IMG/VR virus record: IMGVR_UViG_3300009376_000016
Location: 1 to 61,577 of that record
DNA: 61,577 bases
Strand: one strand, 5' to 3'
Origin: a virus
Shown here: one piece after another, positions 975 through 61,577 of the stretch
Position numbering within the stretch: the stretch's first letter is position 1
Layout: every line of letters starts with the position of its first letter
The notes under the pieces: generated by a model
What the model was told of the DNA's origin: nothing
The model's database searches: none
Seen by the model: the letters and a program-made list of their open reading frames with translations, nothing else
Program-made: the position numbers and the translations under genes

Positions 975-1040
975 TAATATCTCAGGGAGCATTCTCAGGA
1001 GTGCTTCCGAAGATGCTAATTGATGGTCAATTAACATCAT
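975..1040 (+). ncRNA. Structured intergenic RNA element, copy A
   Basis: The element begins 3 bases after the ardC stop. Stem 1 is GGGAGCATTC (985-994) with GAGTGCTTCC (999-1008), a 10-bp stem closed by a TCAG tetraloop. Stem 2 is GATG (1012-1015) plus TAATTGA (1017-1023), pairing with TCAATTA (1027-1033) and CATC (1035-1038), with one C/A mismatch. A second copy at 1401-1465 keeps both stems through paired base changes. There is no U-tract, so it is not a standard terminator. It lies about 20 bases before the next ribosome-binding site. Its function is unknown: a processing site, mRNA stabiliser or regulator are all possible. Confidence 0.6.
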
Positions 1041-1067
1041 TTTAATTTAACCTAAACAGGAGACAAT

Positions 1068-1403
1068 ATGTCTAAAGCTGAAAGATTAGAACATCTTAAA
1101 TTCTCTGTAAATTTTGCAGACTTTGATTGTAGTTTAACAAAGTACAATTTAAGTAATGGTATCGAATACTTGGTAGCAGTTAGACTTAATCAAATACCTA
1201 ATCACGCTAACGGTAAAGGCAAGTTAAGGAAAGCTAATACTATTACTCACATTACTAAACATGAAGATATAAATGATGCTAGGAAAGCATACAATGATGC
1301 TTTAAATTTAATGAAAAAGCATACCTATCTAAAGCAAACAATAATTGAGTTGCAATGTATTAATAATCAACGTGTATCTATGAAAGAAGTTACACTTAGT
1401 TAA
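1068..1403 (+). CDS. Hypothetical early protein
   Basis: This 111-residue protein is not recognised. It is rich in Lys, Asn and Thr, has no Cys motif or membrane segment, and has a helical C-terminal half. It starts at an ATG behind AACAGGAGACAAT, the ribosome-binding module shared with the first gene. Structured RNA elements lie immediately before and after it; the downstream one begins inside its stop codon. It is probably one of the host-takeover genes typical of this position, but nothing in the sequence shows a function. Confidence 0.7.
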   Translation: MSKAERLEHLKFSVNFADFDCSLTKYNLSNGIEYLVAVRLNQIPNHANGKGKLRKANTITHITKHEDINDARKAYNDALNLMKKHTYLKQTIIELQCINNQRVSMKEVTLS

Positions 1404-1465
1404 TATCTCAGGATGCATCGACAATGGTGCATCCGAAGATGTTAATTTGGTAGTCAAATTACATC
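1401..1465 (+). ncRNA. Structured intergenic RNA element, copy B
   Basis: This is homologous to the element at 975-1040. Both share TTAATATCTCAGG at the 5' side and CCGAAGATG between the stems. Stem 1 is GGATGCATCG (1411-1420), loop ACAA, TGGTGCATCC (1425-1434). Stem 2 is GATG (1438-1441) and TAATTTG (1443-1449) with CAAATTA (1455-1461) and CATC (1462-1465). Relative to copy A, stem 1 has A-T to T-A and T-A to C-G swaps, and stem 2 has G-C to T-A and A-T to G-C swaps. The changes keep pairing, as expected for selected RNA structure. A small GGC-AATTAA-GCC hairpin follows at 1468-1479 and recurs at 1766-1777. Confidence 0.6.
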
Positions 1466-2372: not shown

Positions 2373-2609
2373 ATGGATGAAGATAAAAAATGGGAGCATA
2401 TCAGAGAAGTAGTAGATACCTACAAGAATGATCAAGTAGTTAATACTGTAGATCATAGCGAGGATGATCTATTCTCTGAGAAAAATAAACAGAAGTATCA
2501 TCTGGATGTTCCAATTGAGGAATTGTCCAATGGTGGATGCACTCCAGATGGTTTTCTAATAAGAACAATTGGTATGACTAGAAAAGACTTACCAAAATTC
2601 AAATATTAA
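2373..2609 (+). CDS. Hypothetical small protein
   Basis: This 78-residue protein is unrecognised and highly charged. AACAGGAGACAAT directly precedes the ATG. It is the last gene before a putative sigma-54-like promoter, so it may end the first small operon. Confidence 0.65.
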   Translation: MDEDKKWEHIREVVDTYKNDQVVNTVDHSEDDLFSEKNKQKYHLDVPIEELSNGGCTPDGFLIRTIGMTRKDLPKFKY

Positions 2610-2621
2610 ATTGATGGCTTG

Positions 2622-2655
2622 AAGCATACTGGCACTATATTTGCATGGTATGCTT
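2622..2655 (+). promoter_or_regulatory. Putative sigma-54-like promoter inside an inverted repeat
   Basis: TGGCAC (2630-2635), five bases, then TTGCA (2641-2645) matches the -24/-12 consensus, with exactly ten bases between GG and GC. It is enclosed by a perfect 8-bp inverted repeat, AAGCATAC (2622-2629) and GTATGCTT (2648-2655). A near copy, including the inverted repeat, is at 61422-61456. It lies 41 bases before the next start codon. The inverted repeat could be an operator or an RNA hairpin instead. Confidence 0.45.
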
Positions 2656-2685
2656 TGAGTATCTTTAACTTTAACAGGAGATAAT

Positions 2686-3882: not shown

Positions 3883-4227
3883 ATGAGATATATAACAGCA
3901 AAGGAAGCACAAGAAGTAGTAAAAAAAGGACTACCATTGCAAGATGGAAATTGGTTGCCTAATGGGAGTCGCAAGATTTGTGATGGTTATACAATGCATG
4001 ACACTAACCCTAAAAAGAGTGTCGGTAAGAGATCAGCTAAGGTATATTCTGAAGGCAAACTAAGTAGGATCGTAGATTCTGAGCCTATGTCTACTTGGTA
4101 TGCTAAAAAGTATATGGATTACTCAACAGTCATGAGCCAGAAGACTAGGATTAAAAAACAAATTGTCAAAGCTCAGGCTTGTCTTGCAATCTTAGAAGAC
4201 AATAAGGTAATTAAAAAAGCTAAGTAA
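3883..4227 (+). CDS. Hypothetical protein
   Basis: This 114-residue basic protein is unrecognised. It has an N-terminal helical start (MRYITAKEAQEVVKKGLPL), a Gly/Ser/Asn middle and a Lys-rich helical C-terminus. The start follows AACAGGAGAATTAAT and overlaps the end of the 25-codon gene's control region. Translation is likely coupled to that peptide. Confidence 0.65.
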   Translation: MRYITAKEAQEVVKKGLPLQDGNWLPNGSRKICDGYTMHDTNPKKSVGKRSAKVYSEGKLSRIVDSEPMSTWYAKKYMDYSTVMSQKTRIKKQIVKAQACLAILEDNKVIKKAK

Positions 4228-4228
4228 T

Positions 4229-4275
4229 TGTTTCCATCGGGGCACTCTCTGGAGTGTCCTAATGGACACAAACAA
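4229..4275 (+). other. Long imperfect intergenic hairpin
   Basis: GGGCACTC, TCTG tetraloop and GAGTGTCC form an 8-bp stem with one G-U. It is extended by CCAT/ATGG and TTGTTT/AAACAA pairs on the flanks. No U-tract follows. The tetraloop-closed stem recalls stem 1 of the elements at 975 and 1401, but the second stem is missing. Confidence 0.4.
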
Positions 4276-4297
4276 TAACAACTAACAGGAGATAACC

Positions 4298-4553: not shown

Positions 4554-4638
4554 GGGCAAGTATGCAATGGAGAAAGCAACCAGACTGTAAATCTGGTGTC
4601 GTGCGACAAAGTGGGTGCAACTCCTACCTTGCCCACCA
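4554..4638 (+). tRNA. tRNA-Tyr (anticodon GTA)
   Basis: The acceptor stem GGGCAAG/CTTGCCC is followed by encoded ACCA. The anticodon stem is CCAGA/TCTGG with loop CTGTAAA, giving GTA. A class II variable arm (GTCG-TG-CGAC) is present, as expected for bacterial tRNA-Tyr. The T-arm is GTGGG-TGCAACT-CCTAC and the D-arm TGC...GCA. All arms are intact, so it should be functional. It is the only tRNA seen and lies 17 bases before the recombinase start. Confidence 0.95.
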
Positions 4639-4655
4639 ACAAAAGTAAGGAACTA

Positions 4656-5318
4656 ATGAAAAAAGCAGTAATGTATTTGCGTACATCCTCAGCAACTAAC
4701 CTTGATGGGGATAGCGAGGAACGACAAAAGGAAGCAATAGCGAAGTATGCCGAATCACAAGGTATGGAGATTGTGTCAGGTGCATACGATCAAGCAGTTA
4801 AAGGATCAGACTCTATCCATGAACGTGAAGGGTTTGCACAACTAATCCAGTATTGCCTTGATAACGATGTAGATACAATCCTCTGTGAGAATGCCTCACG
4901 CTTTGCTAGAGATGTGATAGTGCAAGAGTTAGGCTACAGGGAACTAAAGAAGTTAAACCTACAGTTGATCCCTGTAGATGCACCTGACTACTTCACAGGA
5001 GATAGTCCAAGCCTGACCATGATAAGGCAAATCCTTGGAAGTGTGGCTCAGTTTGAGAAGAGCAACCTTGTCAGCAAGCTACGAGGTGCAAGGGATCGTA
5101 TCAGAGCGAAGGGCAAAAAATGCGAGGGTCGCAAAAGTTTACAGGAAATATATGGGATTATGAGATACAGAAAACTACAAAAGAAGGTAACAAAACTATC
5201 TGATCAATCTTTAACTTACGATAGAATCTCTCAGATTCTATCTGAACAGGGATGGGTTCAACCATCAACTGGTAAACCATTCCATAAGTCGCAGATCATG
5301 CGATTAATTCTAAAGTAG
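4656..5318 (+). CDS. Small serine recombinase (resolvase/invertase family)
   Basis: This 220-residue protein starts YLRTSS, where Ser11 is the expected nucleophile, and contains the ENASRFARD arginine motif at about residues 75-85 and a SVAQFEKSNLVSKLRGARDRIRAKG helix typical of the E-helix region. A C-terminal segment (YDRISQILSEQGW...FHKSQIMRLI) looks like a helix-turn-helix. It is far shorter than large serine integrases. The start at 4656 follows AAGGAACTA; an upstream in-frame ATG at 4596 lies inside the tRNA and is rejected. The gene is followed by an iteron-rich gap that may hold its recombination site. Possible roles are dimer resolution, inversion or integration at tRNA-Tyr. Confidence 0.85.
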   Translation: MKKAVMYLRTSSATNLDGDSEERQKEAIAKYAESQGMEIVSGAYDQAVKGSDSIHEREGFAQLIQYCLDNDVDTILCENASRFARDVIVQELGYRELKKLNLQLIPVDAPDYFTGDSPSLTMIRQILGSVAQFEKSNLVSKLRGARDRIRAKGKKCEGRKSLQEIYGIMRYRKLQKKVTKLSDQSLTYDRISQILSEQGWVQPSTGKPFHKSQIMRLILK

Positions 5319-5341: not shown

Positions 5342-5630
5342 ACACAAGGCTTGTGTACGCTTGTGTAGTTTACACAAGCCATTTTCGTTGAATTTAACAG
5401 TCTATACTACTAATATAACTATATAATAGATACTTGATATACTATATATTAATACTTACTTGTGTACTTGTGTGGGTAGGGGTACCTCAGCGTAGACTAT
5501 CCCATTACCCTTTTATGTATAAGGGGGGGTACACAAGCACACAAGCGAAGGCTAAAATCGTAGATAAACTGTTGAAATAAATAAGTAAACTCGCTTGTGT
5601 AATCACACAAGCCTAACACAAGCACACAAG
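5342..5630. repeat. ACACAAG/CTTGTGT iteron array with AT-rich core; candidate origin
   Basis: The 347-bp gap 5319-5665 has twelve copies of the 7-mer ACACAAG, in both orientations. Direct copies start at 5342, 5372, 5531, 5539, 5605, 5616 and 5624. Inverted copies start at 5350, 5360, 5459, 5467 and 5594. Pairs at 8-bp steps are frequent. Between the left clusters is a strongly AT-rich stretch (about 5400-5458), like an unwinding element. This layout fits a replication origin with iterons, or an accessory site for the adjacent serine recombinase. Confidence 0.65.
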
Positions 5631-17463: not shown

Positions 17464-20400
17464 TTAACCAGCCTTTAGGGTACGCATATACTTTAACTGA
17501 TCCTCCATAGCCCTAAGCCTTTCCTTCTCTGATCTCTTCAGTGATTCAGGTAGTTTTTTACTCACTCTCTCATTGAGCTTCTTGATAAGGTTGTTCAGTT
17601 TTTCTATTTCACTAGTAAGCAAGTCTTTCAGTTCCTCCTTAGTGTACCTAGCCTCCATACCCTTCCTGTACTTATAAGCAATCTGACGCTGTAGCTTCTT
17701 TATCTTCTGAACTTCAAAGTATACGTTCTTTGCCCTTGCTTCAAAGGGAGCAATAGGCGTGATGTTAAAGCCAAACATTCTAGCTACAGCTTGTGCAGGG
17801 GTAAACTTAGGTTCTCCCTCTCTTCCCACCTTACCTGAGTAAGACTCATACAACCTAGTCAGTGCACCAAATCCTCCTGCCCCTGTATTCTTCCACCAGC
17901 CATAGTTAGCACCACCAACAGGGCTAAGTCCGTGGAACATTGGAGGCATAGTCAGGTTAAACGCATAATTAATCCACGCTGAATACTTCTCGCCAGTTGA
18001 AGCAAATTCATCATATATTTCTTTGTCTGTGAATGGGTCTCTGTGTGTTAATGCTGTAGTTGCTAGATTAATCAGTGGGCTACTCAACAAGCCAACAGTA
18101 TGGAACGCATCCGTTATCTGTGACCCCTCATCCTTAGTTGGATCAAGCTCACGCCATACCTCTGCAAACATACCCCAAGGGAAGAAGTAACCAGCATCTG
18201 CTATCTGTCCTCTACCTAGTGAGTCCTTAGTAAAGTCCATCCCAAATATTACTGGTAGTGGAAGAACACTCTCAGGTATTAGAGACAAGTCTCCCTTAAG
18301 ATTTGCTCTATCTCGTAGGTACTTACTCAGCGTTCCCATCACGGCACTGTACTGCTCATCATCTATATCATTAGCCTCCTTGAAGGAGTTCTTCATATAC
18401 TCAGCAAGTATGATGTATGGAGCAAACTTCCACGGTCTCTTGATAATAGTTTCAATCAACAGCGGTGCAACAAAGCTAGGATAGGAAAGGAACGGTGCAC
18501 CAAACGCACTCTTTCTCAGGTACTTAACAGACGGCAGTGGGTTGCTGTAGTCAAACAACCACTTTTCTGCAGACATCGCTGCATTTGAGTCACTCATTCC
18601 CTGCCCTTTTAAATACTTCAGCATCATGACCTTGCCAAGCGTATCAATTCCACCATACAGGTCTGATGTCTTTCTCTGAAATCCTAGACCTATACGTTTA
18701 AAGGAGTCTCTAATTTTAAACAACCCCAATACTCCCTTCTCGTTATTCTTACTTTTGATAAAATCATTCCTAATCATCTTCAATTCTGTCTGGCTGAAAC
18801 CTCCAGAAGTCAGGCCCATCTTGTCAGCTAACTTTGTATGGGTAGTCAACTCATCAAAATCTTTTTGTGACCCCCTTGACTGTACCATCCTTGTCCTTAT
18901 CTGGTCATCCAGAGACCTAATGAACAGGTCAGGCAGTCTCCACATAGGGACAGGGCCAAGTGACATAAATATCATATTGGATACGAAGTTCCTGACCCAT
19001 GATGGTGGGTTTGCAGATACCTTAGACCACTTCCATAGTCTGTTGTACTGTTCAAAAGTTCCTCCAGTTCCTAAGATTCTCTCTGCCCAACTCTGGTCAA
19101 CAGAACCATCAGCATTTATATCAAAGGTATTCCCTTTTGCTCCCCATCCAAACAGGTCTTCAAATATTTCCTTGCGTATAGCCATCCCTGACAGGCGACC
19201 ATACTTCCTTCCTTTCGGAACCCTCCTGTAATCCTTTGGCAGAACCTGACCAACTATCTCCTTACCCTTATTATTCATAGTCTTGATCAGTGCCCTTGCC
19301 AGCTTCTCCTTCTTATTATCCAGAGTGAGGTGATTATCAACCAAGTCCTGAATCCTGTCTGCCTCATTCAAAAGCCAGTGACCACTTATCTTTACGCCTT
19401 CAGTGTCCATCAGTTGCAGTGCATCTATCAGTGCCTGATCAGTACCTGCAAGTTTCTTCATCTCTCCAATAGTGTTAAATTTAACAAGAGTCTTTGGCAG
19501 CACCCAACCCCTGTTCTCCTTGAGTCCCTCACTTGCAATCACTTCAAACATATCCAAGATTGCCATGTCCCTTACAGGTGTGGATATAGAAATGGATGCA
19601 AGGTATGCAGGGTCTTTTATTTCTCCATATATTAGTTCAGCAATTCCTGCAGGGATGTCACCCCTCTTCTTTGTGTAGCCCAAGTCAAGTTTTACTCCTG
19701 CACCACCCTTACTTATTGCGTTGAAGTCGCTGTCACCAAGCAGATACTTTAGGTACTTCCTTGGGAGGTATTGATCGTCATACTTATCAAGTGATTCCTG
19801 AGTCATTAACCCTTTAGTAACCAAGTCCCTGCCTATCTGTTTAATCTGTTTCTTAGCGGCAATAGCGGCTTTCCTCTCAACAGGATTAGTAATTAAGGTT
19901 GCATCTGCATGAGGTGTAGTAAAGTATTCAAACAAGACTTGTTGTTGTTTTGATTTCCTTAGCAGATTAAACAACTTCTCTCCTGCCTGTTCTGCCATCA
20001 TGATGACACCCTTGTTCCTTCTCCTTATATCCTTGTAAACATTTGTATCAATAAGAGTACCCTGAGATATTAGCCTTCTTGTCAGCTTATGGGCTAACTT
20101 ATCCTGCCACTTAAAGGTAGGAATCCAGTGTCCACCGTCCCAGTTCAGTCTACCCTCTGCAACAGTAGATTGGTTATATGACAGCATCCTTGAGGCATTA
20201 TAGGCTTGCTTACGTGCCTCCTTTGTCCGTTTAATGGGTTCAATAAGTGCTTCTGGTGTAATTTTAAAAGCAGGGCGTGTGTAATCAATTGATTTAAGTG
20301 CACCTTTAAGATGATCATCTACTGTTCTTTTTCTAAATCTCTCACCCCTTGGAGGTTTCTTAGTAACCACTTCTCCTTTAAATTTTCCAGAGGTAGCTGG

Positions 20401-23400
20401 CTTGCCAGTCATCCAAGATATAACCTCTGCTGAATATATTGTATTTTCCTGAGCAAAATCTGTTTGACCTTTTGCAAAAAATGGTTTTTGAATACTTTTT
20501 AGCCTCCCCTTGTCATCAAACCTTCTTCTCCCCTGCATTAACCACTCTTTCCCATATGTCTTAAGGGGGATTGGAGTATCTAATAATATTATCCCCTCAC
20601 CTTGTAACACATACTGGTAACTAGGATGTTCTTTTATTCCTAGCTCCTTTGCATTAGTTAAAAAGTTAGGCTTATCTCTATGGAACTTTAGTATCCCCAC
20701 CAAGTCACCCATCTTTGCATCTGGATAAGCTGATGTTCTCCTCATTAACTCTTGAAAGCCCACCAAATTATTTTTCTTTGCCCTCATTTTCCCGAAAAGG
20801 AATTTTATGATTGGTTTCCTTGATTCAAAGGCTAATTCCTTCCCTGTCTTAGCTCTATCGGATAATTCATTTTTAAGCCCTAGCTCCATGAGTTCTTTAA
20901 ATGTTTTTATCTTTCCTTCAAACTCTGGTACATATTTTGTAACAGCTTTCCTTGCACTCTCATCTAATAGTTCTATGTCAGGCTTCTGACCAGTCTCTTT
21001 ATTCCCTAATTTTAATGCATCTAAGGTTTCTCTATATGCAACATTCCAAACATCTATATTACTCATGTGCATATCTTCCTTACCTACAATGATGTATCCA
21101 TAATTAGCTTCTGTATCTATTACAGCATTATATGTTTTTGTAGTTGACCCTTTCTGCGAGGCCCACACACCCCTTCCTCCTTTTCCTTTATTATTTTTAT
21201 CAAAGGCATATCCGGGGCCGCCTCCTAAAAATATATTCCCAGCATGGACAGATTTTCTACCCCAAGTTGGTTTATATACTCCTCGTATTAACCTATCTGA
21301 AATACTTCCTACAGCAAGTTCTCCATATAATTCTTCTGGTATTGGTAATTTCTTTGACAGATTTATAGTACCTATAAATGTTCCATGCCCCTCTTCTGAT
21401 TTACTATCTAGGTATTTTTGTACTGCCTCATCAGTAATATCTACTCTGTAGGCGGCACCATAACTTTCAGCCACAGACTCTCTCTTAGCTGTATCCTTTA
21501 TACCCTCCTTCACTCTACGCTCTGCACCTCTGGCAAATGCAACAGGATTAATCTTAGCTTCAGCCTGTGCCAGTTCTTCTGTGAAGGTGGTGCGTTTCCT
21601 TGACATATTGACTTTCCTGCCACCTGATATGTCCTGTCTGCCCTCACCTACCTCAGCCAGCCTAGACTTTGCCTTGGCAAGTGTGGGGAAGTGCTCATGT
21701 CCTATTCCATTCTCAGTCCTAGCCATGTCCAGTTCACCATCAGCCTTGAAGAACGTGATTCTGTACTTTCCCTCATTAGGTCTGGTATTCCTGTGCAGTA
21801 GCATGGTTCCATCTACACCAGCATCCTTGTTGTACCGTGCATATATACCAAAGGCTTTTGATTGATTAATCTTAGTTAGTAGTTTGCCTTCTGCTGTTTC
21901 TGTTTTACTTCTAACTTCTTTAGTCGGATATTTTTCCCACCTTACTTCTACGTCTCCTAACCAATCTGGTGTTACTTTGTAATGAATAACATTACCTTTA
22001 AAGACTTCAACTATCTCATTACTTGATATTTTACCAAGTATAGGTCTATACCAACTTTGGAGATTCTCATATTTGCCTAATCTATGTTTGGCAGGTTCCT
22101 TTATACCAACAATCCAAACAGGAGCCTCAAAATGTGGAGCTAGTTCATTGGAAGAAAAACTTTGTGCATAGCTTCCTGACTCACGTAAGCTAGTTGTAAA
22201 AAAAGTCATTCCTTTTTGTGGTTCAAACGCTTTGTGTCCGGCAGACTCTATAAAACCTCTCTCTACTATTGTTTTGTATTCCGCATCGGACATGCCTCTA
22301 TATACAACACCTTCCTTTGCCTCATCCCTTAAATTTTTACTATTCCCTGCTTCTCCTAAATCTTTTGGTTCCTTGAACTTTGGTCTTGTCCAGTAATCCC
22401 CCTTTGTACCAGCTAATTCCTTCTCAAATTTTTCAATATAATTAGGATCATAGTATGCCACCTCACTATTTCTTTCTTCGACATCTTTTTTTGTTTGTTC
22501 AAAAGTTCTAGGCCATTGGTATACAGCATCTTTCTTCGGTAGTGGCGAATAGGTTGTATTATACTTCTTAATTTTCCCTTCTTTAACTAATTTTTCTAAG
22601 TCAGGTTTTACTAGAAACCTTTTTGAGTAATTAAGTCTTCCACCTTCAATAAACTTATCAGATGGTACACTTTCTGCCGTACCAACCTCTACTCCATAGG
22701 CTTCAGCATCCAGCGGTGTATCTCTTGGTAGGTCTTTGAATCCTGACTTCTCATTGATACTCTCAACTTCTCCATCAGAAAGGAACCTGTTAATCTTCAT
22801 AGACCCTGCTATGATCCACTCGCCTTCCATATTAGGATTAGTCTTATACCTGTAATTACCATCAGTAGGCACCCCATCCTTTATTTCTGCAGTTGCAGGA
22901 TTCATCTCTCCTGCACGTTTATGGGTCTTGGCATATGGGACAGCCCTTTTGTTTGCTTCTGGTTGCCAGTCAACATCATCTGCCACCTCTACCTCAGCCC
23001 ATATCTGGTCAGGTGGTCTCTTGGTAGGTAGCCTCCCTTTTCTTTCTGTTCCTATATGGACAGCAAATGGGAAGTCAGACAGGTGCCAGCCACCTCTATC
23101 TGCAAATCCCTTTGTTGATATAAAGTCTGCATCCTGCCACTCATTCACAGGTACAGCCTCAGTTGCTCCAATAAAGAGTGGGAATACTTCTCCCTTCTTT
23201 GTCTTCTTCATCTTAAACAGTTTGTAGCCCTTGATTGTTTTCTTTGGAACAGGCTTTGTCCTCTTGGAGAAGTTAAGGGAATGATCGTTGACAAGTTTAG
23301 ACTGTGAAATAGTAAGCGTTTCTATCTCCTCTTCAGCCTCACCTGTGGCTTCTGGCTTCTTAGCCTCTTCAACCTTTTCTTTTGGCTTCTCCCTTTGGGC

Positions 23401-26400
23401 CGTATGTGCAGTAAACCTGACAGGAGCAAAGTCTTCTCCCAATAGGAAGTTTCTCTTACCGCCTATGTAGTCCTGTTGAATTTCTGCAAGGAGGGTCTTA
23501 ACCTGATTGATTGTAACGCCAGAGAATAAGGGGATTTCACTAAGTTTGTTACGGAGTGCAACAACGATCCTGTTAATTATGTTGGGGTCTCTGGCTCCAA
23601 ATTCAGCAAAGTGGGATGCAATGTATTCCTCTGCCATCAGGAAGTCTAACTTTTCTTTCTTAGCTGAGTCGTAGTTATCGTATGCCTCTGTGCGTTCATC
23701 TAAGTCTGCTATATTCTTTATCTCAGGTGGAAGGTACTCCTGTCCTGTACCCTCTACTGCGTAGTCCTTCAGTACCTTCTTGTTTAACTTTACAAATCTC
23801 TTAATGAAACCGTTGTAACCTTTACCTAAAAACTTCCTGAGACCATAGTGACCAATAACCTCATGGAACAGTATATTAATAAGACGACCTGCACCAGAGG
23901 TTGCTCTTCCATATATTTTTCTGGCCCAATTTTCAAGGAACTTCTTATATCCCTTTATATTCCCATCTATTATGTAGATTACATCACCAACCTTTGGAAC
24001 GAATGCTTCAGCATTTTCAAATATTTCATTAGCCTCTGCCTCCCCAATTATTTCAGTTAAATGGGTTACATCATCCTTATTATTTCTATCGAGAACCCTA
24101 AAGGTTACATCCTTATCCTTCAGGTTGGTCTTATTCTTGAAGTCATCAATTACTGTATCAATTTCATCCCTTGAAAGTGTATACGTTACTTCTTCTTCAG
24201 TAAGTACTAGACTCTTATTACCCTTATTATTTTTCTGTGTATGCTTTTTAACATTCCCCTTTTTATCTTTAATTGTTGTGACAACTTTCTTACTTACCTT
24301 ATCTGCCTTTATCTGAGCCTTTTGTTGTCTGACAAGAGCCTTAGCAAATCTCTCCGGCAATACAGAGTCCATGTTTTCATTATCCCAAACATCAGACATG
24401 TCTGTTTCTTCTGCATATTTGCCATCATTTATGTCATCTTGTATTATAAATTCCCAGTCATCCTTATAATCCTCATAGTTCATCATACCTTCATCGTATT
24501 CACCCTTAATATCCTCAACTCTCTGCTTACGTTGTGGGTGAAGAAATTCTATAGGAACCTTTGCTCCTCCTTCTATTTTATCCGTTCTTGGATCACCTCC
24601 TGTACCTCCTGCGGCTTCAATAACCTCTTCATGGTAACCCTTCTTTAGAATAGGTTCTAAATTCGGGACTTTATATTCAGGCTTAACTTCCTCTTCTACT
24701 GGCTTCTTTAGTTCTGCTAACCTTGAATCAAACTCTTTCTGGTTCTTCTTTATAAAATCCGAATCATCTGCGGGTAATACATCCATGTCTTTTGGATTCT
24801 TAGCAATAAACTTGGATAGTCTGTCCAGATTTGTTTGTATGTACTGTAAGTCTGTTTCTCTGTATTTCTTCCTAGCTGCTTCAAATTTTCTGTATTTATC
24901 TGAACCCGGCCTACCAATCATCTCAGATTCTTCAGGGCTAAACTTATACGACTTATCTGATCTTCCGGGCTGATTACTTAACCTTACCCTTTCAAACCTA
25001 CCTGCTAATTCAGGAATATTCTCTGCTACTTTAACAGTAGGAGTTTCTACTACAGGTTCTACTACAGGTTCTACTACTTCTTGAGTAGTTACTTCTGTAG
25101 TTTCCCTAGCCTCCTGAAGTTTATTTAGAATATCTTCTGTCGTATCAGTTTTTGTTATTTTTATATTTTCATTTTTTGCTATTCCTCTTGCTAGTTCATC
25201 AACTTGTTCTAAAGATAATCGGCCTTCTGGAGTTGTCCTCGTACCACTAGGGTTATACCATTTTGTAATTAACCCTTTTAGTGTCAACCTACCTTTATTA
25301 TTTGTATTTCTTTTTGTTCTGAGTGTTCTCTCCAGATTACCTAATTCTGTATATAATTTAAGATTATCAAATTTCTTAATTATACCTAACTCTTTCATTA
25401 TTGCATCAGCTTTAACTGTAATCATCTCCTTTTCCTCAGGAGTTTCCTCAACTACAGTCTCTGCTTCTCCCCTTGCCTTTGCCCTAATCTTATCTATAAC
25501 ATCTGTTGGTTTGTCAGACTTTAGTATTTTTATATCAATTGCCTTAGCTATTCCCCTTATCTTCTTGGTAATAGTTAATGGAATTCCACCCTTATCAACT
25601 GACTGCAGTAGTTCTACAACCTCTTCCTCTATTGTAGGAACTTTTGTCTTAGTTGTTGTTTTCTTTCTTCTTTTCTGTTCATTTTGTAAAGCCTTTACAT
25701 CGTTATCTAATGGAGTAGTATCTAAGCCTAATTTTTTGGCATCTTTTATAACCCTCCTCTTTTCCTTGGCAATACTTTTTAACTCTTCATCAGTTAATCC
25801 AGAAACTCTTCCTTCATCAAAACGTTTTTGTTGATCTGTAGTTTTAGATGGCGGTACAGCATTCAACACATAATTCTCGCTTTTAACATCAGTAGATTCG
25901 TCATATTCAGGCTCAGGAGTTACTACCTCTGTAGTCTCAATCTCAGCTTCAGTAGCTTCTGCCGCATCTAAGATTGTTTGTGTAGTAGCCTGTGTCTCCT
26001 TATCTGCCTCAGTAGCCTCAGCTTCATCCTGCTTCTGAGCATCTGCTACTCTTTTTGCCTCCCTTTTTTCTGCTTTTATCCTTTCCCTCTCTGCTCTCTG
26101 CTCCTGTTCCTTCTCTATTCTGGCAGTATCCTTCTCAAACTTGTCTAATGCCTTATCTATGGTTTCTCTTCTTTTCCCTTCTCCTATTCTTTGAGCAATA
26201 TCCCTGAATATATCAGCATTGTCTTCTGCAAGGACTGAGGCTACATCATTCTGTATTCTACCCTCAGCCAGTTTAAGGTCTTGGAACTCCTGCACTGCGG
26301 CTTCTGGATTAACGTCATGCAGGGCTACAATCTTCCTGATAAGCTCATTAGTTACACGCCTCTTATTTTTTTCTTCTTCTACCTTCTTTATTCTTGTTTC

Positions 26401-27693
26401 TATTGCTTTCTTTTCTGCCGCTTCCTTCTTTTCTTCGACTAGTTTAGTGTCAGTCTTACTAGCATCAACACGGTGGTCTCTCTTGGGCAGGGCACTCTTG
26501 ACAGTCTGTTCAATTGAAGTGAATCCTGCAGTTGCTACAAACTCTCCTGCCAGAGCCTTGACAAATACCTCTGACTTCTTAGGCCCAATTTCTATAAATG
26601 CCTGTTCTAATTCTGCCACCTTATTTGGATCAACACCGCCATCTATAAGTGCATCCAGCATTGCCTGTCTTGAGACTGCAATGTCCCATACCTCAGAGGT
26701 TGTACCACCAACTACATCAGCTAGACCCCTGACCAGCCACCCTCCGGCTGGAATGTAACCAATCATCTCTGGTATTCCAGAAGATATTAGTCTCATGCCT
26801 AAGTTGTTCTGTGCGGCATGACTAGCTATTTCATTTATTTTTGATTGCTGTATTGGGGAGAGTTTTTCAAATGGGATGTCTGGATCAATCTCCAGTGCCT
26901 TGCGGATTATAGGATGATCCTTTACTTCATCTGCAGTCTGAGCGGCTACCATTGAGGATGCAGCAGTACCACCACTAAGCATGGCTAAACCTGCGGTTGC
27001 TACTGGGCCTAATCCGCTGGCATATGCTCCAAGTGCTGCGGCACCACCAGCCGCCATTGGAATTACTGTACTGGTAGAATAACTACCCATCTCACCAGCC
27101 GTAGGAAGGTCTTCAGCAAATTTTTCAGTAGATAATGGGACAAACTCTGGGAGTTCTTTAGCAACTTTATACTTCCAGCCGCCTTCTTCTTTCAGTCTTG
27201 CTAGGGTTTCTTCTCTGGTTTCGGCAGGTTTATAGGTGGGGTCTTCCTCCTGTCTCTTCTGGAGTCTTGTCTTTATTTCGGGGTACTGAGCCGCTTCTTC
27301 TAATTGCTTCTTCCTGTACTCAGGTGCCCATTCCCTGATTGCATCTGCATACTTCTCTGCCCTCTGTTCTCCTTCTCTCAGGGAACCAAGTTTGTCAAGC
27401 CAAGGAGCTACAATGTGCTCACCCTTAGTGGCAAGTCCAGCTTGAAACTCATCCCAACTCTTAGCGGCACCAGAACCAAACTCTCCTAGAGTGGAAGAAA
27501 GAAAACCCTCCTCATCTTCTTCTTCTCTTGGTTCAGGTCTTTCTGATCTCCACTCCTCTACCCATGAAGTATCTAACGGCTTTTCTTCTGGTACAGGGCC
27601 ATATCTAGCTTCATATCTTTTCTTTGCATCTTCACGTGTCTCCCAAGGATATGAATTTGATTCAACCCATACCTCAAAACTTCTTTTTGACAT
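17464..27693 (-). CDS. Giant polyvalent protein: zincin, ADP-ribosyltransferase-like and polyvalent-associated domains
   Basis: This 3,409-residue protein takes one sixth of the genome. Segments: acidic N-terminus; Gly/Ala-rich hydrophobic stretches near residues 205-255 and 300-330; a long charged coiled-coil region (about 390-1150); a zincin metallopeptidase with HEVIGH at 1277-1282; a module after 1474 (KGYKLFKM...GGWHLSDFPFAVHIG...IWAEVEVADDVDW) seen in large polyvalent proteins; an ADP-ribosyltransferase-like domain at about 1795-1900 (VYRGM with Arg1799, a TTSLRESGSYA core, NEIVEVF with Glu1893/1896); another module after 2030; and a conserved C-terminal region with hydrophobic helices near 3060-3100. 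Polyvalent proteins are thought to be packaged and injected to blunt host defence. It is the last leftward gene, next to internal virion proteins. Confidence 0.8.
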   Translation of the reverse strand: MSKRSFEVWVESNSYPWETREDAKKRYEARYGPVPEEKPLDTSWVEEWRSERPEPREEEDEEGFLSSTLGEFGSGAAKSWDEFQAGLATKGEHIVAPWLDKLGSLREGEQRAEKYADAIREWAPEYRKKQLEEAAQYPEIKTRLQKRQEEDPTYKPAETREETLARLKEEGGWKYKVAKELPEFVPLSTEKFAEDLPTAGEMGSYSTSTVIPMAAGGAAALGAYASGLGPVATAGLAMLSGGTAASSMVAAQTADEVKDHPIIRKALEIDPDIPFEKLSPIQQSKINEIASHAAQNNLGMRLISSGIPEMIGYIPAGGWLVRGLADVVGGTTSEVWDIAVSRQAMLDALIDGGVDPNKVAELEQAFIEIGPKKSEVFVKALAGEFVATAGFTSIEQTVKSALPKRDHRVDASKTDTKLVEEKKEAAEKKAIETRIKKVEEEKNKRRVTNELIRKIVALHDVNPEAAVQEFQDLKLAEGRIQNDVASVLAEDNADIFRDIAQRIGEGKRRETIDKALDKFEKDTARIEKEQEQRAERERIKAEKREAKRVADAQKQDEAEATEADKETQATTQTILDAAEATEAEIETTEVVTPEPEYDESTDVKSENYVLNAVPPSKTTDQQKRFDEGRVSGLTDEELKSIAKEKRRVIKDAKKLGLDTTPLDNDVKALQNEQKRRKKTTTKTKVPTIEEEVVELLQSVDKGGIPLTITKKIRGIAKAIDIKILKSDKPTDVIDKIRAKARGEAETVVEETPEEKEMITVKADAIMKELGIIKKFDNLKLYTELGNLERTLRTKRNTNNKGRLTLKGLITKWYNPSGTRTTPEGRLSLEQVDELARGIAKNENIKITKTDTTEDILNKLQEARETTEVTTQEVVEPVVEPVVETPTVKVAENIPELAGRFERVRLSNQPGRSDKSYKFSPEESEMIGRPGSDKYRKFEAARKKYRETDLQYIQTNLDRLSKFIAKNPKDMDVLPADDSDFIKKNQKEFDSRLAELKKPVEEEVKPEYKVPNLEPILKKGYHEEVIEAAGGTGGDPRTDKIEGGAKVPIEFLHPQRKQRVEDIKGEYDEGMMNYEDYKDDWEFIIQDDINDGKYAEETDMSDVWDNENMDSVLPERFAKALVRQQKAQIKADKVSKKVVTTIKDKKGNVKKHTQKNNKGNKSLVLTEEEVTYTLSRDEIDTVIDDFKNKTNLKDKDVTFRVLDRNNKDDVTHLTEIIGEAEANEIFENAEAFVPKVGDVIYIIDGNIKGYKKFLENWARKIYGRATSGAGRLINILFHEVIGHYGLRKFLGKGYNGFIKRFVKLNKKVLKDYAVEGTGQEYLPPEIKNIADLDERTEAYDNYDSAKKEKLDFLMAEEYIASHFAEFGARDPNIINRIVVALRNKLSEIPLFSGVTINQVKTLLAEIQQDYIGGKRNFLLGEDFAPVRFTAHTAQREKPKEKVEEAKKPEATGEAEEEIETLTISQSKLVNDHSLNFSKRTKPVPKKTIKGYKLFKMKKTKKGEVFPLFIGATEAVPVNEWQDADFISTKGFADRGGWHLSDFPFAVHIGTERKGRLPTKRPPDQIWAEVEVADDVDWQPEANKRAVPYAKTHKRAGEMNPATAEIKDGVPTDGNYRYKTNPNMEGEWIIAGSMKINRFLSDGEVESINEKSGFKDLPRDTPLDAEAYGVEVGTAESVPSDKFIEGGRLNYSKRFLVKPDLEKLVKEGKIKKYNTTYSPLPKKDAVYQWPRTFEQTKKDVEERNSEVAYYDPNYIEKFEKELAGTKGDYWTRPKFKEPKDLGEAGNSKNLRDEAKEGVVYRGMSDAEYKTIVERGFIESAGHKAFEPQKGMTFFTTSLRESGSYAQSFSSNELAPHFEAPVWIVGIKEPAKHRLGKYENLQSWYRPILGKISSNEIVEVFKGNVIHYKVTPDWLGDVEVRWEKYPTKEVRSKTETAEGKLLTKINQSKAFGIYARYNKDAGVDGTMLLHRNTRPNEGKYRITFFKADGELDMARTENGIGHEHFPTLAKAKSRLAEVGEGRQDISGGRKVNMSRKRTTFTEELAQAEAKINPVAFARGAERRVKEGIKDTAKRESVAESYGAAYRVDITDEAVQKYLDSKSEEGHGTFIGTINLSKKLPIPEELYGELAVGSISDRLIRGVYKPTWGRKSVHAGNIFLGGGPGYAFDKNNKGKGGRGVWASQKGSTTKTYNAVIDTEANYGYIIVGKEDMHMSNIDVWNVAYRETLDALKLGNKETGQKPDIELLDESARKAVTKYVPEFEGKIKTFKELMELGLKNELSDRAKTGKELAFESRKPIIKFLFGKMRAKKNNLVGFQELMRRTSAYPDAKMGDLVGILKFHRDKPNFLTNAKELGIKEHPSYQYVLQGEGIILLDTPIPLKTYGKEWLMQGRRRFDDKGRLKSIQKPFFAKGQTDFAQENTIYSAEVISWMTGKPATSGKFKGEVVTKKPPRGERFRKRTVDDHLKGALKSIDYTRPAFKITPEALIEPIKRTKEARKQAYNASRMLSYNQSTVAEGRLNWDGGHWIPTFKWQDKLAHKLTRRLISQGTLIDTNVYKDIRRRNKGVIMMAEQAGEKLFNLLRKSKQQQVLFEYFTTPHADATLITNPVERKAAIAAKKQIKQIGRDLVTKGLMTQESLDKYDDQYLPRKYLKYLLGDSDFNAISKGGAGVKLDLGYTKKRGDIPAGIAELIYGEIKDPAYLASISISTPVRDMAILDMFEVIASEGLKENRGWVLPKTLVKFNTIGEMKKLAGTDQALIDALQLMDTEGVKISGHWLLNEADRIQDLVDNHLTLDNKKEKLARALIKTMNNKGKEIVGQVLPKDYRRVPKGRKYGRLSGMAIRKEIFEDLFGWGAKGNTFDINADGSVDQSWAERILGTGGTFEQYNRLWKWSKVSANPPSWVRNFVSNMIFMSLGPVPMWRLPDLFIRSLDDQIRTRMVQSRGSQKDFDELTTHTKLADKMGLTSGGFSQTELKMIRNDFIKSKNNEKGVLGLFKIRDSFKRIGLGFQRKTSDLYGGIDTLGKVMMLKYLKGQGMSDSNAAMSAEKWLFDYSNPLPSVKYLRKSAFGAPFLSYPSFVAPLLIETIIKRPWKFAPYIILAEYMKNSFKEANDIDDEQYSAVMGTLSKYLRDRANLKGDLSLIPESVLPLPVIFGMDFTKDSLGRGQIADAGYFFPWGMFAEVWRELDPTKDEGSQITDAFHTVGLLSSPLINLATTALTHRDPFTDKEIYDEFASTGEKYSAWINYAFNLTMPPMFHGLSPVGGANYGWWKNTGAGGFGALTRLYESYSGKVGREGEPKFTPAQAVARMFGFNITPIAPFEARAKNVYFEVQKIKKLQRQIAYKYRKGMEARYTKEELKDLLTSEIEKLNNLIKKLNERVSKKLPESLKRSEKERLRAMEDQLKYMRTLKAG

Positions 27694-59603: not shown

Positions 59604-59852
59604 CTAACCAAATGCTCTTTTAAATGCTCTTGCCATTAGACTTGGCTTCTTCTTTTTTTTATTCTTAGCCTCAGAAGTTATAGTATCTGACTTAGTAGAT
59701 TTTTTTATACTACTCCCTTTACCTCCTCCAGCGTGTCCACCTGCTGTTAAATCAAGTTGATTTATAGGTATTGCCGCAGTCTTATGGTTAGTCTGATCTC
59801 TATAAGAATGAAATTTTTTCTTTGAATCATACTTCTTAAATGAACCTGCCAT
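59604..59852 (-). CDS. Hypothetical basic protein
   Basis: This 82-residue protein is Lys/Ser/Gly-rich and ends NKKKKKPSLMARAFKRAFG. It is similar in style to the basic array at 47.8-50.5 kb but lacks both C-terminal tags. It overlaps the preceding gene by one base and lies directly before the large terminase. Possibly DNA-binding. Confidence 0.55.
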   Translation of the reverse strand: MAGSFKKYDSKKKFHSYRDQTNHKTAAIPINQLDLTAGGHAGGGKGSSIKKSTKSDTITSEAKNKKKKKPSLMARAFKRAFG

Positions 59853-60175
59853 TATTTCCCGTCTGTTATGTCGTCTATAGTCTTGTCTATCTTTTGAAAT
59901 ATCTTCTTCTCTAGATGAGGAAGTAGCCTAATACCACTATATCCTATGAGAAAGGCTATAGTTAATGCTGTATATGGCCCAAATTCAATTTGTTCCATCA
60001 ACATTGGAATAAAAAATTCTGCTGCAATCCATCCTACTGCTGCTGCAATTGCCAGATTCTTTGCCTCCATAGCTAATCCTGTCCATTTATGGACTAATCC
60101 GTTTGTTAAACCACCGCAGGTGCTTGCAAATACGCAGCACCACTTGGCACCAAAAAGTGTTAAAAGTGTTTCCAT
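59852..60175 (-). CDS. Holin-like membrane protein
   Basis: This 107-residue protein has hydrophobic segments at about 1-25 (LLTLFGAKWCCVFASTCGGLTNGLV), 40-62 (NLAIAAAVGWIAAEFFIPMLM) and 68-87 (YTALTIAFLIGYSGIRLLPHL), with a charged C-terminus. The topology fits a class I holin. Its place between the terminase genes is unusual given the separate lysis cassette. Confidence 0.6.
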   Translation of the reverse strand: METLLTLFGAKWCCVFASTCGGLTNGLVHKWTGLAMEAKNLAIAAAVGWIAAEFFIPMLMEQIEFGPYTALTIAFLIGYSGIRLLPHLEKKIFQKIDKTIDDITDGK

Positions 60176-60483
60176 TAATCCTGTATAAAATTATATTGTT
60201 AAAAAGATGACGGCCCCAACCGAGGTACTAAGGGGAAGTCAGGGCCGTCTAGGGCTGGAGACATAGCCCTTTCATATCTTTCTCTAAAACAGTGAAATAT
60301 GCAAGTGTGTATAAATGCGAGTAACTACTTTATGTATACTAAGTGGGGGGCCGATGCGACCCCACCCCTCCTTTATTTTTTTTCTTCCATCATATCAGTT
60401 ATTTAACCGGATTCTGGTGTGTCGTATACCTTTATATATGGTATTAGGTTTCAGAATCTCAGGAATGTGAAACCAATCCATCC
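60176..60483 (-). other. Gene-free region after small terminase: hairpins, possible packaging or control region
   Basis: This 308-bp region has no credible gene. It holds four inverted repeats: GACGGCCC/GGGCCGTC (60209-60249), AGGGCT/AGCCCT (60251-60270), GTGGGG/CCCCAC with a poly-T stretch on the plus strand (about 60342-60375), and GGTTTCA/TGAAACC (about 60448-60475). An ATACC/GGTAT pair lies between the last two. Such density near terS suggests a pac/cos or regulatory site; termination explains only part of it. Confidence 0.5.
60200..60249 (-). terminator. Rho-independent terminator after small terminase gene
   Basis: On the minus strand GACGGCCC...GGGCCGTC forms a perfect 8-bp GC-rich stem (loop about 25 bases, with inner CCCC/GGGG pairing possible) followed by ATCTTTTTAAC. 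This would end or attenuate transcription of terS before the membrane protein gene. Confidence 0.6.
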
Positions 60484-60909
60484 CTAATCCATTGCTATTG
60501 CTGGGTTTGCTGGGGTTATGTCTTTAGTATTAGTAGATGAAAGTAACTGTTCAAACGATACCGAATGCTCATGTTTAACCTGTTTTTGTTCATTAAATAA
60601 GCCAATCTCACTACCTAGTAACTTCAATATGTCCTTACAGACACCATGAGATTCTGCTTCAAGTGCCTGATTATACAATCGAATCAGATCACTTAGCACT
60701 GATTGTTTGGTAATACCTAATGTTATCTGAAAATCTTCTATTCTTTTCTCTATTTCCCTAATTACTGAACTTTTCTTTAGTAGTTTATGACCAGCCTGAC
60801 TAGCGGATGGTACAGCATAACCTGCTAGTTTGGCACTCTCTGTAGCATTACCATTTGATGCGTAAGCTATTGAAAACTTTAGTTCTTTTTGCGTTAATTT
60901 ATCTTTCAT
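60484..60909 (-). CDS. terS: Terminase small subunit
   Basis: This 141-residue protein shows the family opening LTQKELKFSIAYASNGNATESAKLAGYAVPSASQAGHKLLKKSSV (about 4-48), a helix-turn-helix that binds packaging sites, followed by a helical oligomerisation part (IREIEKRIEDFQITLG). It is the first gene of the leftward arm, diverging from the rightward genes. It would hand DNA to the large subunit. Confidence 0.8.
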   Translation of the reverse strand: MKDKLTQKELKFSIAYASNGNATESAKLAGYAVPSASQAGHKLLKKSSVIREIEKRIEDFQITLGITKQSVLSDLIRLYNQALEAESHGVCKDILKLLGSEIGLFNEQKQVKHEHSVSFEQLLSSTNTKDITPANPAIAMD

Positions 60910-60931: not shown

Positions 60932-60959
60932 TTGACATATATATAGATAAGAGTAGAAT
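60932..60959 (+). promoter_or_regulatory. Sigma-70-like early promoter of rightward arm
   Basis: TTGACA (60932-60937), 16 bases, TAGAAT (60954-60959). The -35 is perfect and the -10 is 5/6. It lies in the divergent gap between terS and the 61024 gene and would transcribe through the contig junction into the ardC region. It is the best promoter match in the window. Confidence 0.65.
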
Positions 60960-61023: not shown

Positions 61024-61407
61024 ATGCGAGTAATTGCAAGCGAGATTAGCAAAGCAGGGGACAATATGGAGTATGTAAACCATCCAGATATTAATGATGC
61101 TCTAAAAAGATTCTTTGAGAATCCAGAGAATCACGCAAAATTGATTGATGAGGAAAATCCAATTGAGAAACCAAGGAAAAAACGTGCGAGGAAACCAAGA
61201 CCTGAGCCTACCATACATGAAATGTGCAAAGCTCAAGCAGATTATAACGTACTGCTTCCAGAAGTAAGAAAGCATTTTGGTTTATCAAATGATTCAGGAA
61301 AACCAAGCAGAAAAAAATCACAACCAAGACCACAAGGTTGTGTGCGTATTCTATCTGAGCATAAGCGTAATCCTGAAGAAACATTCTCATTCAACAATAA
61401 AATATAG
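61024..61407 (+). CDS. Hypothetical early protein, first gene of rightward arm
   Basis: This 127-residue protein has a basic, Pro/Lys/Arg-rich middle (IEKPRKKRARKPRPEPTIHE) and tail. ATGGAGACAAC precedes the ATG; a second in-frame ATG at 61066 follows AGGGGACAAT and is an alternative. As the gene next to the strongest promoter, it is likely made first. DNA or RNA binding is inferred from its charge. Not recognised. Confidence 0.65.
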   Translation: MRVIASEISKAGDNMEYVNHPDINDALKRFFENPENHAKLIDEENPIEKPRKKRARKPRPEPTIHEMCKAQADYNVLLPEVRKHFGLSNDSGKPSRKKSQPRPQGCVRILSEHKRNPEETFSFNNKI

Positions 61408-61421
61408 TAGTTGATAGCTTG

Positions 61422-61456
61422 AAGCATACTAGGCACTAAACCTGCAAGGTATGCTT
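61422..61456 (+). promoter_or_regulatory. Putative sigma-54-like promoter inside an inverted repeat (second copy)
   Basis: AGGCAC (61431-61436), five bases, CTGCA (61442-61446), with ten bases between GG and GC. It is enclosed by AAGCATAC (61422-61429) and GTATGCTT (61449-61456), the same arms as at 2622-2655. The copy is one base longer inside. It lies 45 bases before the ardC start codon in the circular genome. Confidence 0.4.
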
Positions 61457-61458
61457 TT

Positions 61459-61577
61459 AGGTATTCACTAACGAATGCCGTAATCAAAACAGGAGACAAT
61501 ATGAGTAAATTCCAGAAGTTGAATCCCTCACAAATCAGGGAAAAGCAAAATGAAACAATGCGTAAGCAATTGTTAGA
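61459..61577. repeat. Contig terminal direct repeat, right copy
   Basis: Identical to 1-119. Shows that the contig closes into a circle of 61,458 bp. Confidence 0.95.
61501..61577 (+). CDS. ardC: ArdC-like gene, first 25 codons (cut by window end)
   Basis: This is the same start as the gene at 43-972, including its CAGGAGACAAT ribosome-binding site. It is present only because the contig ends overlap; the full protein is described at 43-972. Confidence 0.9.
   Translation, partial: MSKFQKLNPSQIREKQNETMRKQLL

Follow-up and report, generated by a model that had tools for sequence, protein, structure and literature searches.

The sequence analyzed here (the window) is the whole 61,577-nucleotide stretch of viral record IMGVR_UViG_3300009376_000016. 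Its two ends are identical over 119 bp (positions 1-119 and 61459-61577), which means that the genome either is circular or has terminal redundancy and that the early operon crosses the ends of the record. Judging from its sequence, the record probably covers the whole of a circularly permuted genome. The portal and terminase show only a distant likeness to their counterparts in other phages, among them the HMO-2011-like marine phages. The rightward early genes comprise, in order, a gene at 61024-61407, an ArdC-like gene at 43-972, and a series of small genes, and a strong sigma-70-like promoter (TTGACA-16-TAGAAT, 60932-60959, plus strand), identified by consensus match only (11/12), sits upstream of the first of them. 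The transcript that carries the RNA elements described below likely starts at this promoter, and from the gene order and the single promoter match we infer that the early genes are co-transcribed.

A tRNA-Tyr gene (4554-4638) overlaps the GTG annotated as the start of a serine recombinase frame (4596-5318). Translation of this frame probably begins instead at a downstream ATG. Just downstream of the recombinase gene, a 338-nt gap contains a cluster of ACACAAGC / GCTTGTGT repeats (5355-5630), which might serve as iterons in replication or as a site of recombination.

Two homologous elements with a shared strand

The gaps after the ArdC-like gene and after the next gene, gene 2 (1068-1403), hold plus-strand elements at 974-1038 and 1400-1465. 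A preliminary description had proposed two homologous structured RNA elements at this locus, and this holds by position, by sequence identity (79% in a stretch of 48 nt, 75% in the 44 nt that follow), and by folding, with z-scores of -4.9 for copy 1 and -6.4 for copy 2 against 200 dinucleotide shuffles (0/200 in each case). The homology spans about 90 bp and reaches into the next Shine-Dalgarno (SD) sequence. Gene 2 is flanked directly by copies 1 and 2.

Both copies contain a first hairpin, stem 1, at 985-1008 in copy 1 (10 bp with a 4-nt loop) and at 1411-1434 in copy 2. Two compensatory changes claimed for this stem, A-T to T-A and T-A to C-G, are indeed two-sided, and we found a third, C-G to G-U, at the loop-closing pair. 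For the second hairpin, the proposed changes from G-C to T-A and from A-T to G-C can be read as two-sided only when one base is gapped, as the 3' arm slips by 1 nt. The reported absence of a U-tract applies to both copies.

The two-hairpin model of the preliminary description proved to be incomplete. The leader TTAATATCT (strand A) is complementary to the junction AGATGYTAA (strand B), and both are kept in the two copies. In RNA form, strand A, UUAAUAUCU, pairs with strand B, AGAUGYUAA, enclosing stem 1 by way of a CA/GA internal loop in an imperfect hairpin of ~23 bp. In both copies the minimum-energy fold has this A:B pairing and not hairpin 2. Strand A occupies 972-982 in copy 1, where it adjoins the TAA stop codon of the ArdC-like gene (970-972, 15 nt before stem 1), and 1398-1408 in copy 2, where it includes the TAA stop codon of gene 2 (1401-1403). 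Strand B (1011-1023 and 1437-1449) can alternatively pair with a downstream strand C (1027-1038 and 1455-1465), which in copy 1 is the 3' arm of the previously proposed hairpin 2.

There are therefore two states that share strand B and are mutually exclusive, with stem 1 present in both. State 1 (A:B plus stem 1) is an imperfect hairpin of about 22-30 bp across elements, while state 2 combines a B:C hairpin with stem 1 (about 10-17 bp) and is identical to the two-hairpin fold. Among 23 elements, 4-11 nt of strand B swap partners, and the energy gap between the states ranges from -1.0 to 7.1 kcal/mol, with a median of 2.7 favoring A:B; state 1 is favored over state 2 in 22 of the 23. By its predicted folds, the element is a three-strand bistable RNA and not a static two-hairpin RNA.

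An element family across related phages

The elements are not limited to two tandem copies, as had been described, but belong to a family with at least 25 members of A-stem 1-B-C design on 11 related phage contigs, including four in the window (beginning at 61406, 972, 1398, and, in degenerate form, 2606). They emerged repeatedly when early-region gaps that precede SD sequences were folded in contigs gathered by a terminase scan (74 loci, mostly from close relatives). The terminase had no matches in bacterial genome contigs, and scans of viral contigs with the early proteins returned no contigs beyond those already in the set. No relatives of the gene 2 protein were found, and the gene 3 protein has a 61% homolog on a contig lacking the RNA element.

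Two sequence subgroups of elements align without gaps over A, stem 1, and B; the other elements are unrelated in sequence and share the same design. The third copy in the window belongs to the other subgroup, with A, stem 1, and B at 61406-61470 (plus strand, 50.9 bits) and C at 61473-61479, and its portion from 61459 onward recurs at positions 1-21 because of the record-end overlap. The fourth copy (2606-2671, plus strand) keeps A and stem 1 and has lost strand C. Twelve copies were used to build a covariance model, which recovered its input as well as three matches outside the input, all with weak scores. One was this degenerate copy (21.3 bits), and the others were L105:3049-3113 (22.6 bits), which shows both predicted pairings (UACCU/AGGUA and GGUAC/GUACC), and L159:3075-3141 (21.8 bits), in which the B:C helix is clear. 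The model had no matches in more distant complete relatives. The main-subgroup motif was absent from genome contigs and among viral contigs occurs only in the same phage clade. A first-guess consensus pattern was discarded, as its 79 matching stretches in viral contigs were essentially chance and mostly without stems. The earlier remark that the elements match no known family also stands: no Rfam 15 family reaches its curated threshold, a nucleotide search of the element region against named phages gave no matches, and a search of open-access literature text found no description of such an element. The elements thus apparently represent an undescribed RNA family.

The placement of the elements is regular. 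In all 25, an upstream reading frame has its stop codon in strand A or next to it, at a distance of 7-24 nt from stem 1, and the elements run from this stop codon to just before the next ribosome-binding site. Where an SD sequence was found, it lies 32-54 nt past stem 1 (20 nt in the degenerate copy). The elements are always between co-directional genes, and several junctions of the same operon have none. Near-identical elements occur between non-homologous genes (W3 and L096b, 87% over 76 nt; L108c and W2, 87% over 60 nt), and homologous upstream genes precede different element types (L151a versus L096a and L103a), which together imply that the elements recombine or move as cassettes.

We judged covariation by pair counts against shuffles. 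In stem 1, nine pairs have two-sided changes, with 40 two-sided cells compared to 12.4 in shuffles (0/500). The B:C helix is paired in all 63 of 63 cells among nine aligned copies, and two of its pairs have two-sided changes (five cells, versus 1.4 in shuffles; 0/500). The A:B helix is 94.8% paired, and its covariation is not above shuffles; as this helix is mostly conserved or varies by one-sided G-U changes, the case for it is that A and B are complementary even in element types of unrelated sequence and that own strands were compared with swapped ones. Across 19 elements, A pairs better than its shuffled counterparts (Fisher p 3e-15) and B:C is better than with shuffled downstream sequence (Fisher p 4e-19), values that are optimistic because the elements were first chosen by eye from coding-strand folds, and related copies in these statistics are non-independent. 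Own A and own C each outperform swapped strands (0/20000 permutations), and within the main subgroup the same comparison gives p ~0.012 for A and ~0.014 for C. We also used a blind, model-independent structural descriptor, of which the first version was too strict and was relaxed once. On 80.6 kb of relatives it gave 16 coding-strand matches (among them L124, L133, and L137, which are not of the A-stem 1-B-C family), three on the other strand, and 0-2 per shuffle, so that the blind count is about 16 above a background near 1; in the window it gave three coding-strand matches, one on the other strand, and 0-2 in shuffles. The stems are kept in the homologs, which we checked for broken pairing, and the proposal of selection on plus-strand RNA structure is supported and can be extended to at least 25 elements.

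Several other small structures are present in the window. A small hairpin, GGCAATTAAGCC, occurs at 1468-1479 and 1766-1777, upstream of two consecutive SD sequences, and similar hairpins (GGCAATTAAGCC, GGCGATAAAGCC) are found 3' of elements in L096 and L103. At 4216-4290, an intergenic hairpin, GGGGCACTCTCTGGAGTGTCC, with an outer stem and without a clear strand C lies upstream of gene 4298 and has a relative in L159. A second, unrelated structured-RNA candidate, strongly conserved and present in about 20 related phages, is located at 60203-60275 between the minus-strand genes 59852-60175 and 60484-60909. Its layout is GACGGCCCC-AACCGAGGTACTAA-GGGG...GGGCCGTC-TA-GGGCTGGAGACAAAGCCC, in which the outer stem covaries (GACAGCCC/GGGCTGTC, GGCGACCCC/GGGGTCGCC) and CCGAGGTACTA and CTGGAGAC are nearly invariant; no Rfam family matches it at threshold.

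Possible functions of the elements

Some familiar regulatory devices were considered and set aside. A coding-strand consensus scan found no promoter in copies 1 and 2, although a phage-specific promoter would escape such a scan. A terminator was rejected for both copies, given that there is no U-tract or terminator-like site, and an SD-sequestering switch of the erm type was rejected, as SD exposure has no consistent dependence on the state. We considered hairpin promoters of the N4 type because of a 3409-aa protein (17464-27693, minus strand), which is probably an internal virion protein and has only two PHROG matches, both of unknown function; the PHROG scan gave no sign of a virion RNA polymerase.

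The elements probably act as exchangeable switches through which translation of the upstream gene is tied to the cutting or stability of a shared mRNA. In the leading, still tentative, candidate mechanism, each element would be a gate that responds to translation and controls whether RNase III processes the gene junction. From the recurrence, RNA-level pairing, shared strand B, stop placement, and interchange seen in the sequences, we infer an effect of the ribosome and a cleavage step as follows. A ribosome terminating on the upstream gene would cover A, B would then pair with C, and only short helices would be present. Without a ribosome, A:B would extend stem 1 to an imperfect hairpin of about 22-30 bp, which host RNase III would cut, severing the mRNA between the genes. 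After the cut, B:C might form a hairpin with a protective role close to the 5' end just made. Such a switch would make the cleavage or stability of the junction depend on whether the gene before it is translated. Hairpins that begin less than ~27 nt downstream of a stop codon are repressed in their folding by a ribosome positioned there (PMC4824070), so a terminating ribosome should mask A. The minimum duplex for RNase III is ~22 nt (PMC5371410), and the R1.1 RNase III signal of T7 lies between early genes (PMC6121014). It is possible, if doubtful, that the elements are a new class of RNA device, made up of exchangeable, bistable modules, in which termination at each stop determines whether the junction is a long hairpin that can be cleaved or a two-hairpin form that cannot, and with it the fate of that mRNA joint. 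If true, the phage would tune each joint of its polycistronic early mRNA by an exchangeable cassette that reads termination upstream, bringing together three subjects that are mostly treated separately: attenuation under the control of translation, the processing of early phage mRNA by RNase III, and the shuffling of genes as modules. Whatever the mechanism, the family offers a good test set for RNA switch prediction, as two alternative helices are kept in more than 20 natural variants.

Other explanations have to be weighed against the proposed gate. The hairpin could be constitutive, with A:B and stem 1 always cut or always blocking exonucleases and B:C forming later as a 5' hairpin downstream, with no sensing of translation. 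This would fit a hairpin of 22-30 bp with internal mismatches between early genes, as in the T7 early RNase III signals, and the greater stability of state 1 in 22 of 23 elements; however, on its own it would leave unexplained both the constant overlap or contact of A with the stop codon and the small energy gap between the two states, and we consider it somewhat unlikely. The strand topology, in which 1:2 competes with 2:3 and a ribosome is able to occupy strand 1, is also that of an attenuator, and B:C or A:B might act as a pause, terminator, or antiterminator hairpin under the control of a trailing ribosome, as in amino-acid attenuators. A transcription-level switch of this kind is unlikely, however, as the window copies have no terminator-like site or U-tract and no fourth strand that consistently pairs with C was found. 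In favor of a static RNA with two independent hairpins, state 2 is exactly that fold and is well conserved, but every element type has a leader that can pair with its junction, and the minimum-energy fold uses this pairing, making the static reading very unlikely.

Two further explanations place the signal in DNA. Homologous recombination between repeats has reportedly been proposed to swap early genes in the mobile cassettes of T4, and the elements here might likewise be DNA cassettes for gene shuffling in which the RNA fold is secondary. The near-identical elements between non-homologous genes, the homologous genes with different element types, and the direct flanking of gene 2 by copies 1 and 2 all agree with this, but the compensating pair changes in stem 1 reduce the homology available for recombination and unrelated sequences converge on the same fold, so we regard it as unlikely. 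The inverted repeats could also reflect a feature of double-stranded DNA, such as a cruciform or a site for replication or protein binding, or else neutral mutation templated by the hairpins. Such repeats are symmetric at the DNA level, and compensating changes can arise without selection when the template switches inside a hairpin. Against this, G-U pairs outnumber A-C pairs by 51:6 and the coding-strand fold is stronger in 22 of 23 elements (by a mean of 9 kcal/mol), both being partly biased, and the former count optimistic, because the structures were chosen on the coding strand; in addition, descriptor matches favor the coding strand by 16:3 and the elements are always between co-directional genes. 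We give this last explanation very little credence.

Comparison with known systems

The RNase III signals of the T7 early region, such as R1.1 between genes 1.0 and 1.1, are imperfect two-turn hairpins with an internal loop that lie between early genes of a polycistronic mRNA (PMC6121014). The elements described here likewise lie between early genes of what we infer to be one transcript, and in state 1 they form a hairpin of at least ~22 bp with internal mismatches. In contrast, the T7 signals have no known alternative B:C fold tied to an upstream stop codon, and their sequence is unrelated. In the ribosome-controlled attenuators of the trp, his, and erm leaders, three strands form exclusive 1:2 and 2:3 helices, and a ribosome on strand 1 favors 2:3. 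Our elements similarly have mutually exclusive helices with one common strand, but they are intergenic rather than in a leader, copies 1 and 2 have no terminator, and SD exposure does not consistently follow the state.

The PeSL mobile regulatory cassettes of T4 are also repeated intergenic stem-loop units common to unrelated neighboring genes, and here too the same cassette is found between non-homologous genes. These T4 cassettes, reportedly described by Arbiol and colleagues (Arbiol et al. 2010), are said to carry an early promoter, whereas the consensus scan found none on the coding strand of copies 1 and 2. In the cIII mRNA of phage lambda and in sib retroregulation, the action of RNase III is set by which of two folds forms. 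These are phage mRNAs with fold-dependent RNase III action, as proposed here, but they are single loci of unrelated sequence and architecture and not repeated cassettes. Taken together, from their sequence the elements resemble attenuators in topology and T7 signals in position, a likeness that falls short of establishing membership in either family.
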